From an uncultured Bacilli bacterium (GTDB lineage: Bacteria; Bacillota_I; Bacilli_A; RF39; UBA660), in NCBI GenBank assembly GCA_947626115.1, contig CANQQX010000011.1, forward strand, positions 1-39,198: a stretch of DNA of 39,198 nucleotides, written 5' to 3'. Shown here in pieces: positions 10,089 through 29,213 of this stretch. The translations under genes were made by a program, and so were the position numbers. The notes below the pieces were generated by a model, which was not told the DNA's origin, searched no databases, and was given only the letters and a program-made list of their open reading frames with translations. The first letter of the stretch is position 1, and every line of letters starts with the position of its first letter.

Positions 10089-11696
10089 TTATTCAATACC
10101 AGCTACTCTAAATGGATCTCCTATTGTTCCTTCACCAGATAATTCTATATTACTTGTTAGAAAGAAAACAGGACGAGCAATACCAGAATTGTCTACTTTG
10201 TTGGAGATAACATAGCCTAACCAATACACAAACCAAACATTGTAACGACCGTCATTTAGTCCACTGCGGGACATAGTAAATTCGACCATCATATTCGTAG
10301 ATGGTGTTGTTAACCAGCTTATTCCATAATCATCAGAATCTTCATTTCCTAATAATGAATTAGTAAATGTGCTTATACAATTTAATTCTTTATCATTTTC
10401 AAAACTACTGCAATAATCTGTTATACTCATTAAACTAACTTTTCCTATCGTTTTATCTGTTGCTTTTGTTTCTTCTTTTAATAAAAAATCAGAATATAAT
10501 TTAGCATAATTTTTACCCGCTTCTTTTCGAATATCTAAATCTCCATCACCATATATCACTTCTTCATATTCTTCCATCTTTTGTTGCTCTTCTAGACTCA
10601 TATTATTTTCATTTATATCTCCATATACCCATGTTGTATTTAATATTTTATTTTTTAACTCTATTGGTAATGTATTATAAAAATCTGTATTTAAATATTT
10701 ATATAATTCACTTTCTGACCATTTGATATTATTATAGCTATCACTATTCCATACAATACTATCATTTACTGGGGTATCTTTAACAACTTTCATTAAACCA
10801 TCTTCATTTACACCAATTATTCTGTACATATCATTACTTGTTTCTGTTGAACAATCATTTCCTAAACAGATATAATTGTTATTTACTGTATCTTCTCTAT
10901 CAAAAGTATATTCATTTGAATTATAATTACTAATTATTGAATTACCTTGATATCGATATAATCCATTTATTAAGTTTGTTGTTAATTTATTTCCTTTATC
11001 ATTTTTTCTTAAATGTGTTTCTACTTCTGATACTCCGACATTACATTCTAAATCTTGAAATGTTACATCTATATTTAATGTCTTATTAGCTAAATATGTT
11101 TGGTCATCATTTCTATTTATTATCTCAACAAATCCATCTATTTTTCTTTCTTCTTCACTTGTTATTCCTATCTCAAATGGAATTGTCACTGTTCCACTTG
11201 CCTTTAACTCACTTAAATCTATTCTTTGTTGTAATGAACCGGCATTTAAATATAGATAGGCATCTCCTGTATTAAAAAATTTACCCATATCATTTTCGCT
11301 TGCTACTTGCATTGTTATTACAGCATTGGCTGTACACATATATCTTGTTTTACCATTTCCTCCTTCGGCTGTTAATTTTCCTAATGTATGTATTCCTTCT
11401 TCTAATGTTTTGACATAATTTGCAGTATCATCACCATAATATTCGGTATTTTTATTTGCTTCGGCCATATCTACTGCACTTAAATTAACATGTAAGTTCT
11501 CTGTTACTTTTTGTAGTGCTATGCTATCTATTGCATCTATATCTCCTTTAATACTTGATTTACTTGTACTATTATCTGTATCTATCAAAAAGAAGGCAAA
11601 TGTTGCACCTAGTGTTAATAATAGTAATGCTATTACGCCGATTATTGCTAATCTTATTTGTTTCTTTTTCTCATTATTATTTACTTCTTCATTCAT
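10089..11696 (-). CDS. Surface protein A, phase-variable candidate
   Basis: 535 aa. A short Lys/Asn-rich cytoplasmic start (MNEEVNNNEKKK) precedes one membrane segment (about residues 14-37) ending GATFAFF, reminiscent of SipW-dependent TasA/camelysin signal regions, so it may be anchored or processed. The extracellular part has an N-terminal domain with conserved Cys, a middle block with GLYRYQG and MYRIIGVNEDG, and a C-terminal block ending ARPVFFL...GEGTIGDPF. Protein B (27451-29124) is a clear paralogue over the full length; the protein at 31320-32573 shares the final block. The biochemical function is unknown. An AGAAAGGA ribosome-binding site lies 7 nt before the ATG. The promoter contains a G9 run in its spacer (separate entry), suggesting on/off expression. 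Confidence 0.85.
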   Translation of the reverse strand: MNEEVNNNEKKKQIRLAIIGVIALLLLTLGATFAFFLIDTDNSTSKSSIKGDIDAIDSIALQKVTENLHVNLSAVDMAEANKNTEYYGDDTANYVKTLEEGIHTLGKLTAEGGNGKTRYMCTANAVITMQVASENDMGKFFNTGDAYLYLNAGSLQQRIDLSELKASGTVTIPFEIGITSEEERKIDGFVEIINRNDDQTYLANKTLNIDVTFQDLECNVGVSEVETHLRKNDKGNKLTTNLINGLYRYQGNSIISNYNSNEYTFDREDTVNNNYICLGNDCSTETSNDMYRIIGVNEDGLMKVVKDTPVNDSIVWNSDSYNNIKWSESELYKYLNTDFYNTLPIELKNKILNTTWVYGDINENNMSLEEQQKMEEYEEVIYGDGDLDIRKEAGKNYAKLYSDFLLKEETKATDKTIGKVSLMSITDYCSSFENDKELNCISTFTNSLLGNEDSDDYGISWLTTPSTNMMVEFTMSRSGLNDGRYNVWFVYWLGYVISNKVDNSGIARPVFFLTSNIELSGEGTIGDPFRVAGIE

Positions 11697-11724: not shown

Positions 11725-11753
11725 AGTATATATTACCCCCCCCCGATTGTCAA
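11725..11753 (-). promoter_or_regulatory. Promoter of surface protein A with G9 spacer tract
   Basis: -35 TTGACA (11748-11753) and -10 TATACT (11725-11730) are separated by exactly 17 bp, made of ATC, nine G (11736-11744) and TAATA. The spacing is the optimum for sigma-A, so this copy is predicted ON. A change in G number by slippage would alter promoter strength. Confidence 0.8.
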
Positions 11754-27450: not shown

Positions 27451-29124
27451 TTAAATTTCAAGAATATATGGATTTGACTTCGTGCCATCTCCACTTGCTA
27501 TCTTTGCACTTGATGATAGGTAGAAAACTGGACGAGCACAATAAGCTCCAACATTAATTTCCCCAGCACTAAATTCACCGAACATATGAACACGATGAAC
27601 GTTTATGGTTGTATCACTAGTGCTTTCAATACCCCAACGAGTACTAAGTGTCTCCCAAGCCAAGGAAGAGTTATATCCATCTTTATCAAAATGAATCCAA
27701 CTTTTTGCTACATTTGCACTATTTCCCGGGTTTCCTCCTGGATATGCATATAAATAATCATACATATACAGTAAGCTTGTTTTTGATTTTACTTTATTTG
27801 TCTCTGGCCATTTGTATGTTTCAAGAGTTATATCTTCTTTTGTCCCTATATAGTGTGTTGTATTTGCTTGTCCGGTTTCTATTGCATACATATAATCTCC
27901 ATTATATGTATTTGAATCATTGTAATTTTGATTTGTATCTCCATACATCCATTCATGTTCTTCTATTAAGTTGTACCAATCAGTTCCTTGTGTTAAATAT
28001 TCATATGGGCTTTGGTGTTCATTTGTTCCTAAAAATAAATTTGTATCACCATTTGCACCTGAATTTGTTCCATTGCTTGTTCCATTTATTCTTTTAAACA
28101 AATCTACATTCGGCCATTCACAAGAATTACTTAAACAATCTGATATATCACCTTTTGAATTCCAGAAAAACTGTCTTTCATATTCTTCTTTTAAAACTAC
28201 TTCTTTTAGTAAATATAATTGCCCTTCTTCTGTTATTCCTATTATCCTATACATATATTTATTTACTCCTGTGTTCACACTTGTAGTTCCAGATGTACAT
28301 TCTCCTTTATCCTTTGTTCCAAAGCATATCCAGTTTGGTACACTACTTGTTCCTTGATATCTATACATTCCACCAATTATATTTTCGCTTAATGTATTAT
28401 TTACATCATTTTCTCTTAATCTTGTTATTGTTGGATGTTCTATGTATACATTACATTTTAATTCACTTGTATTTATATCGATATTTAATTTCTTTCCTGC
28501 TAAATAATTTTGTGATTCATTTTTATTTAATAATTTAATATATGCTTGAATATTTTCTACTTTATTTCCTGTTACTTTAAAACTTAAATTATATTCTTTT
28601 GGATTATTTTCTTTTAATTCACTTAAGTCTAATTTCTCACTTATGATATTTCCTTTAAATTGTAATATCATATCTCCTGAATGTAATACATCTATCATTG
28701 TATCTTTATCTGCATCTGGTTCTGTTATTTTTGATACTGTTAATTTCGCTGTACAATTATATTTGGTTGTTTCTTCTCCACCTGTTAGTTCTATTTCAGC
28801 TATTGTCTTTGTTCCATCTTGCTCATTTTCTTCATATGATTTCTCTACTGCATCTGTTGCATAATATTCATTATTAGCATTTGCTAGTGACATATCACTG
28901 GCACTTATATTTAAATGTAAATTACTTGTTCCTTGTTTTAATGTTACTAAACTTTTTGGTGGTGTTTTTCCGGTTATAGTTGTATTACTACTTTCATTAT
29001 TTGTACTTATTTGAAAGTAAGCATAAGTGGCTCCAAGTACCGCTATTAACAATGTTACTAAACCTATTAGTATTGCTACCTTTTGTTTCTTCTTATTCTC
29101 ATTATTTTTTACTTCTTCGTTCAT
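27451..29124 (-). CDS. Surface protein B, phase-variable candidate
   Basis: 557 aa, a full-length paralogue of protein A. It has the same start (MNEEVKNNENKKK), one membrane segment ending GATYAYF, an N-terminal extracellular domain (LHLNISASDMSLANANNEYY), then GGMYRYQG, YMYRIIGITEEG, and an acidic/aromatic region rich in Asn, Trp and Tyr. The C-terminal block ends ARPVFYLSSS...GDGTKSNPY. The central and C-terminal parts differ much more from A than the N-terminus, as expected for antigenically diversified surface proteins. The function is unknown. The AGAAAGGA ribosome-binding site is shared with A, and so is the promoter layout, except that the G run is 8 long and the spacer 16 bp. Confidence 0.85.
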   Translation of the reverse strand: MNEEVKNNENKKKQKVAILIGLVTLLIAVLGATYAYFQISTNNESSNTTITGKTPPKSLVTLKQGTSNLHLNISASDMSLANANNEYYATDAVEKSYEENEQDGTKTIAEIELTGGEETTKYNCTAKLTVSKITEPDADKDTMIDVLHSGDMILQFKGNIISEKLDLSELKENNPKEYNLSFKVTGNKVENIQAYIKLLNKNESQNYLAGKKLNIDINTSELKCNVYIEHPTITRLRENDVNNTLSENIIGGMYRYQGTSSVPNWICFGTKDKGECTSGTTSVNTGVNKYMYRIIGITEEGQLYLLKEVVLKEEYERQFFWNSKGDISDCLSNSCEWPNVDLFKRINGTSNGTNSGANGDTNLFLGTNEHQSPYEYLTQGTDWYNLIEEHEWMYGDTNQNYNDSNTYNGDYMYAIETGQANTTHYIGTKEDITLETYKWPETNKVKSKTSLLYMYDYLYAYPGGNPGNSANVAKSWIHFDKDGYNSSLAWETLSTRWGIESTSDTTINVHRVHMFGEFSAGEINVGAYCARPVFYLSSSAKIASGDGTKSNPYILEI

Positions 29125-29152: not shown

Positions 29153-29180
29153 AGTATATATTACCCCCCCCGAAAATCAA
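29153..29180 (-). promoter_or_regulatory. Promoter of surface protein B with G8 spacer tract
   Basis: -35 TTGATT (29175-29180) and -10 TATACT (29153-29158) are 16 bp apart: TTC, eight G (29164-29171) and TAATA. It is one base shorter than the promoter of protein A and has a weaker -35, so expression is predicted lower or OFF. Confidence 0.78.
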
Positions 29181-29194
29181 CTGATTTTGTTAAT

Positions 29195-29213
29195 TTTACA
29201 CAGGAGATGTAAA
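29195..29213. promoter_or_regulatory. 19-bp dyad operator upstream of surface protein B (proximal)
   Basis: TTTACA-N7-TGTAAA, 23 bp from the G run, as at gene A. The arms match A; the centre (CAGGAGA) does not. Confidence 0.65.

Follow-up and report, generated by a model that had tools for sequence, protein, structure and literature searches.

Does the run of nine G residues between the -35 and -10 elements of promoter A make the surface protein encoded downstream phase-variable, and is the copy at hand on or off? The promoter lies in the window, by which we mean the whole 39,198-nucleotide stretch of DNA that was analysed, and the first-pass annotation had read it as TTGACA, ATC, nine G, TAATA and TATACT with a spacer of 3 + 9 + 5 = 17 bp. 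That reading is exact: the parts occupy positions 11753 to 11725 of the minus strand (Table 1), 5' of the gene for a membrane-anchored protein, and are followed by a Shine-Dalgarno-like AGGAA and then by an ATG at 11696. Runs of G or C had also been called otherwise very rare, and within the window they are: G/C runs of at least 6 occur only twice in the window, whose G+C content is 26%. The other one is the tract of promoter B, which is placed in the same way 5' of a second gene, and two G/C runs of at least 8 were found in none of 300 dinucleotide-preserving shuffles of the window.

Table 1. Promoters A and B, their genes and the upstream palindromes in the window
Feature	Positions	Strand
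Gene A, 535 aa: N-terminal membrane helix, beta domain, C-terminal DUF6273-like domain	10089..11696	-
-10 element TATACT of promoter A (17-bp spacer)	11725..11730	-
TAATA, spacer of promoter A	11731..11735	-
G9 tract, spacer of promoter A	11736..11744	-
ATC, spacer of promoter A	11745..11747	-
-35 element TTGACA of promoter A	11748..11753	-
Palindrome TTTACA-N7-TGTAAA, ending 23 bp upstream of the promoter A tract	11768..11786	
Gene B, 557 aa, paralog of gene A (33% identity), no Pfam match	27451..29124	-
-10 element TATACT of promoter B (16-bp spacer)	29153..29158	-
G8 tract (C8 on the plus strand), spacer of promoter B	29164..29171	-
-35 element TTGATT of promoter B	29175..29180	-
Palindrome TTTACA-N7-TGTAAA, upstream of promoter B	29195..29213	

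Protein A scores 37.3 bits against DUF6273 (PF19789), above the gathering cut-off of 23.5. DUF6273 domain proteins include the tentaclins and, with its N-terminal domain, the Thomasclavelia ramosa IgA peptidase; protein A has no peptidase domain and carries the membrane helix and beta domain instead. NCBIfam gave no name for protein A or protein B, the FliL-like matches scoring far under cut-off and being confined to the N-terminal helix, and a Foldseek comparison with the PDB returned just weak matches, jelly-roll for the most part; the match to the IgA peptidase domain came from the VIA look.

Are the two tracts of the window part of a larger set? Its genome (1.27 Mb in 56 contigs) has G runs of at least 6 in 71 places. 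A script that called a run promoter-type when -35 and -10 elements lay within set distances and TA followed the run placed 54 of the 71 in that class (54 of the 57 runs of at least 7); the other 17 are G6 or G7. The promoter-type tracts comprise 45 G8, five G7 and four G9, all but one are preceded by a C, and three lie at or in an insertion element. All 52 readable genes behind tracts encode an N-terminal hydrophobic (membrane) segment, compared with 9 of the 31 other genes of the window, and on the strength of this segment their products are predicted to be surface-exposed. Nine groups of paralogs have identical flanks over 7 bases upstream and 11 downstream, and in four of these groups the members differ by one G (three G7/G8 and one G8/G9); because paralogs are related, counts across the tracts are not independent. 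MutS_V and MutL were both found in this genome, so slippage should run slower than in species that lack mismatch repair and its rates may be modest. Loss of mismatch repair was accordingly rejected as a cause of the tracts, and a link to phages was rejected when no viral contig matched the promoter pattern of one subfamily.

The tracts are not all placed alike within their promoters. In the main geometry of this genome, 3+G+5, G7, G8 and G9 give spacers of 15, 16 and 17 bp, and further gene sets have 10+G+0, 7+G+0 and 11+G+0, with G7 to G9. Genus-wide the run is 0 to 11 bp from the -35 element and 0 to 10 bp from the -10 element, by gene set, and in every geometry of this genome it stays inside the spacer; that it is always in the spacer yet at no single place argues against a fixed protein-binding site. 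The G9-rich genome G008 has 2+9+5 = 16 bp, and the window's genome and G016, both G8-rich, have 3+8+5 = 16 bp. The idea that the flank makes up for the usual tract length in every case was rejected, since G022 (21 G8 and 10 G9) has 2+8+5 = 15 bp as well as 2+9+5 = 16 bp, and one tract of 2+9+4. At 15 of 56 tract loci the palindrome of Table 1, or a sequence near it, lies upstream, ending 23 bp before the run in 14 cases and 25 bp before it in one; the two listed sites are the only exact ones in the window, and the palindrome is likely to be an operator for a shared regulator.

Homologs of protein A are present in all 38 genomes of the genus, and G runs of at least 7 in 37 of them, this one included (57 here, 46 in G034, 42 in G018, 40 in G031 and none in G025). 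The usual tract length, 8 or 9, depends on the species: G8 and G9 account for 37 and 0 of 38 runs in G011, for 1 and 18 of 22 in G020, and for 0 and 12 of 12 in G060, and in G016 the run is G8 in 12 of 12 pattern matches and in 30 of 37 runs genome-wide. The tract system is real, non-random and genus-wide. An inspection of homologous loci, as had been proposed at the outset, gave results on both sides. The gene A homolog of G027 (L154) has G8 behind an altered flank, one G fewer than promoter A, and those of G011 (L155) and G018 (L156) have G8 as well; against this, the run of a close homolog in G016 (70%; L153) is interrupted (GGGGGAGG) and so would slip poorly. Among the more distant homologs, several lack a G run at the promoter. 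Where records that share this promoter carry a name, it is "uncultured Bacilli bacterium"; these are metagenome assemblies whose isolate names contain "Lapin", and to judge from that name they are probably from rabbits.

In three sibling species (G020, G032 and G033) many of the G runs are placed within the first codons of long frames, behind an ATG with a Shine-Dalgarno-like site. The tracts with an open frame beyond number 11 in G020 (where 20 of the 22 runs of at least 7 were fetched: 11 coding, 6 promoter, 2 unjudgeable at contig ends and 1 neither), 6 in G033 (where every run was taken in) and 5 in G032. Without length selection all 17 are out of frame as assembled (11 of 11 in G020 and 6 of 6 in G033), the frame closing soon after the run; by upstream sequence the coding tracts form only about four or five gene sets, and the chance of finding all closed is ~0.2 for four gene sets and 0.001 for 17 independent tracts. 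The five tracts of G032, four of which had been picked at G9, are likewise out of frame. The first methionine in the open frame past the tract is mostly distant and without a ribosome site (L202 and L204 of G033 are exceptions), so that the tract must normally be crossed. That all these genes are kin of the tract proteins of the window's genome was rejected, because BLAST related only 10 of the 22 to them and left the other 12 without a match at E 0.001.

The state of a promoter tract has to be judged from its spacer, and for this we compared tract promoters with ordinary ones (TTGACA or TTGACT, a -10 element with at most one change, and a gene no more than 150 nt away). One best spacer was called per tract, with ties resolved toward 17 and secondary -10 hexamers excluded; spacers of 22-27 and 10 bp, which came from unreliable -35 choices by an earlier script, were replaced, and the calls of 20 bp for two TAGACT tracts of G022 are doubtful. 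Among other members of the genus, 13 of 18 ordinary promoters in the fetched stretches have a 17-bp spacer, as do 2 of 62 tract promoters in all. The tracts of G004, G008, G022, G031 and G032 had been chosen by length, so the set without them is the fairer one, and there 2 of 32 are at 17 bp (p = 2e-6 against the 13 of 18), many of the 32 having been retrieved with a search pattern in which the upstream flank is fixed. In the window's own genome the difference is not significant: 5 of 51 tract promoters and 3 of 8 ordinary ones are at 17 bp (p = 0.07), or 7 of 53 (p = 0.12) when the insertion-element junctions L064 and L073, left out of the 51, are counted.

What, then, explains the tracts best? 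A chance run or an assembly artefact is hardly credible: the named sibling records are metagenome assemblies and contig ends are often near tract promoters (for example, 77 bases at the starts of contigs C41 and C10 recur at the ends of other contigs), but recurrence rules this out, with so many long runs in so small a genome, a window so poor in G+C, the result of the shuffles, and the same design in the assemblies of other species. A second possibility is that the run is a recognition element of invariant length, through which a dedicated sigma factor or regulator would control the genes of a surface regulon together. Such a motif would be expected to have a narrow length, as the preponderance of G8 here and in G016 has, and the nearly constant C before the run and the palindrome upstream of some loci would suit it; we nevertheless think it quite improbable, given that the distances to both promoter elements vary by gene set within one genus, that the usual length is 8 or 9 depending on the species, that runs occur in coding regions too, and that a one-G difference separates paralogs of identical flanks in four of the nine groups. 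Narrow tract length also fits biased slippage of the kind described for Campylobacter jejuni (PMC8355987). We consider it quite likely from these sequence comparisons that the G9 run belongs to a set of about fifty poly-G spacer tracts, which together would form genome-wide contingency loci for phase-variable surface proteins. The first-pass claim that the surface protein is phase-variable by spacer slippage thus stands in part, phase variation being strongly favoured by the comparison because of the 54 promoter-type tracts, the one-G differences in four of nine paralog groups, the varied geometries within the spacer and the coding tracts of sibling species.

A narrower question is which spacing is the active one. 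The tracts may vary and the usual 16-bp state nevertheless be active, with 17 bp no better, in which case copy A would be an ordinary or a weaker variant. In favour of this, 16 bp is modal in the window's genome, in G016 and among the G9 tracts of G008, so that it could be under selection as the working state, and the eight ordinary promoters of the window's genome are spread over 16 (three), 17 (three) and 18 bp (two). We find this reading rather doubtful all the same, as most ordinary promoters of siblings are at 17 bp, other geometries rest at 15, 18 or 19 bp (16 is thus not modal throughout), and every one of the unselected coding tracts is out of frame. It is because these coding tracts, whose state can be read directly, rest closed that 17 bp is favoured over 16 as the high state. 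The earlier conclusion that copy A is ON at 17 bp is plausible, and it is consistent with the spacing of ordinary promoters in siblings.

Under phase variation with 17 bp as the high state, replication slippage within the population would add or remove one G and so shift the distance between the -35 and -10 elements by one base, which would turn the transcription of one membrane-anchored surface protein up or down without regard to the rest. With some fifty loci slipping independently, every cell would come to have a surface set of its own. The usual 16-bp state would be low, so that most copies would rest one base off the best spacing and a few, possibly copy A among them, would be on; the repertoire is thus probably silent by default. 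Against this reading, a 16-bp spacer is in many bacteria just weaker and not silent. A wider and tentative version, to which we give a little under an even chance, is that across the whole genus dozens of surface proteins, lectin-like ones among them, are silent by default, each cell showing a rare random few. Taken together and with the same reserve, its parts are that the usual poly-G length would leave promoter tracts off the best spacing and coding tracts out of frame almost everywhere, that related genes would carry their tract in the promoter in one species and in the coding region in a different one, and that, at least in G008, a flank shorter by one base would accompany a longer usual tract (2+9+5 in place of 3+8+5). 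The last of these fails for G022, where the usual G8 stands in a 2+8+5 spacer. The scarcity of tract promoters at 17 bp and the closed sibling frames may be compared with the vlhA family of Mycoplasma gallisepticum, in which few members are on at a time.

In vlhA, as in vlp of Mycoplasma hyorhinis, a repeat lies in or near the promoters of a surface-protein family; those repeats are poly-A or GAA and the proteins are lipoproteins, whereas here the repeat is poly-G and the proteins are of DUF6273 type among others. Similar in design are Neisseria porA and fetA, in which a homopolymer between the -35 and -10 elements sets surface-protein transcription by its length (PMC5320596, explicit on this for fetA). 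Promoter A and the 54 promoter-type tracts have the homopolymer in the same place, and differ from the Neisseria cases in being so many in one 1.27-Mb genome of an uncultured Bacilli lineage and in their narrow G8 length. Many poly-G loci of narrow length in one genome also recall the Campylobacter phasomes, which according to PMC8355987 include more than 50 phase-variable genes in two species, with mutational bias holding C. jejuni tracts mainly at G9 and G10. Campylobacter tracts are mostly inside genes, whereas those of the window's genome are nearly all in promoter spacers, and C. jejuni is without mismatch repair, whereas this genome has MutS and MutL. Switching by a promoter-spacer homopolymer is thus already known; among the open-access literature matches listed there was no report on poly-G promoters in this lineage, and nothing was found there for RF39 together with phase variation. 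If the interpretation is right, a 1.27-Mb genome of little-known uncultured gut Bacilli would hold a promoter phasome of some fifty loci, an inroad to the question of how bacteria of the gut change their surface in the face of phages or antibodies. Tract lengths at all loci could be counted at once in metagenome reads, a direct test of the phasome, and coding tracts, whose state is read from sequence, set beside promoter tracts, whose state is inferred, would give a handle on resting-off repertoires.

Some of the tracts are associated with an insertion element that is IS1182-like by sequence. Its transposase is above the cut-off for Pfam DUF772 and scores 207.1 bits against IS1182 (NF033551), below the curated cut-off of 270. 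The element, found at L065:722-2485 (C12:908-2668 of this genome) and at L243, L244, L245, L246 and L247, occurs in 4 of the 38 genus genomes, with six transposase matches (three in this genome and the others in G016, G006 and G031). It appears to insert into poly-G tracts, because in all six cases at least one end of the element abuts a run of G5 to G8. Among the 54 promoter-type tracts, C12:745 and C15:29137 are right-hand junctions at which the -35 side is supplied by the element; C12:2787 and C37:189 (G6 or G7) are the left-hand sides of promoters that the element has split. At C12:822 (L064), the third of the 54 that belongs with the element, a promoter-like poly-G run lies inside the end of the element and is directed outward into the downstream gene.

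At the start of C41 and at C6:51812 (L100, L051) a common upstream sequence with its poly-G promoter, 77 bases in all, leads into two different genes, which could reflect recombination between promoters or a branch in the assembly. At L091 (C32:2798-4422 of this genome) a tract-controlled paralog of gene A is broken into two frames; other paralogs are intact. In a sample spanning the class, a loose form of the promoter pattern matched at least once in 93 of 296 genomes, with few matches in most of them and 37 in G273, a genome from a different genus within the same family; in several genomes of another family, G8 to G11 adjoins the -10 element. The poly-G promoters of G273, G062 and genomes of family f21 have other flanks and look independent, and G062 has three adjacent copies with identical flanks and runs of G9, G10 and G11.
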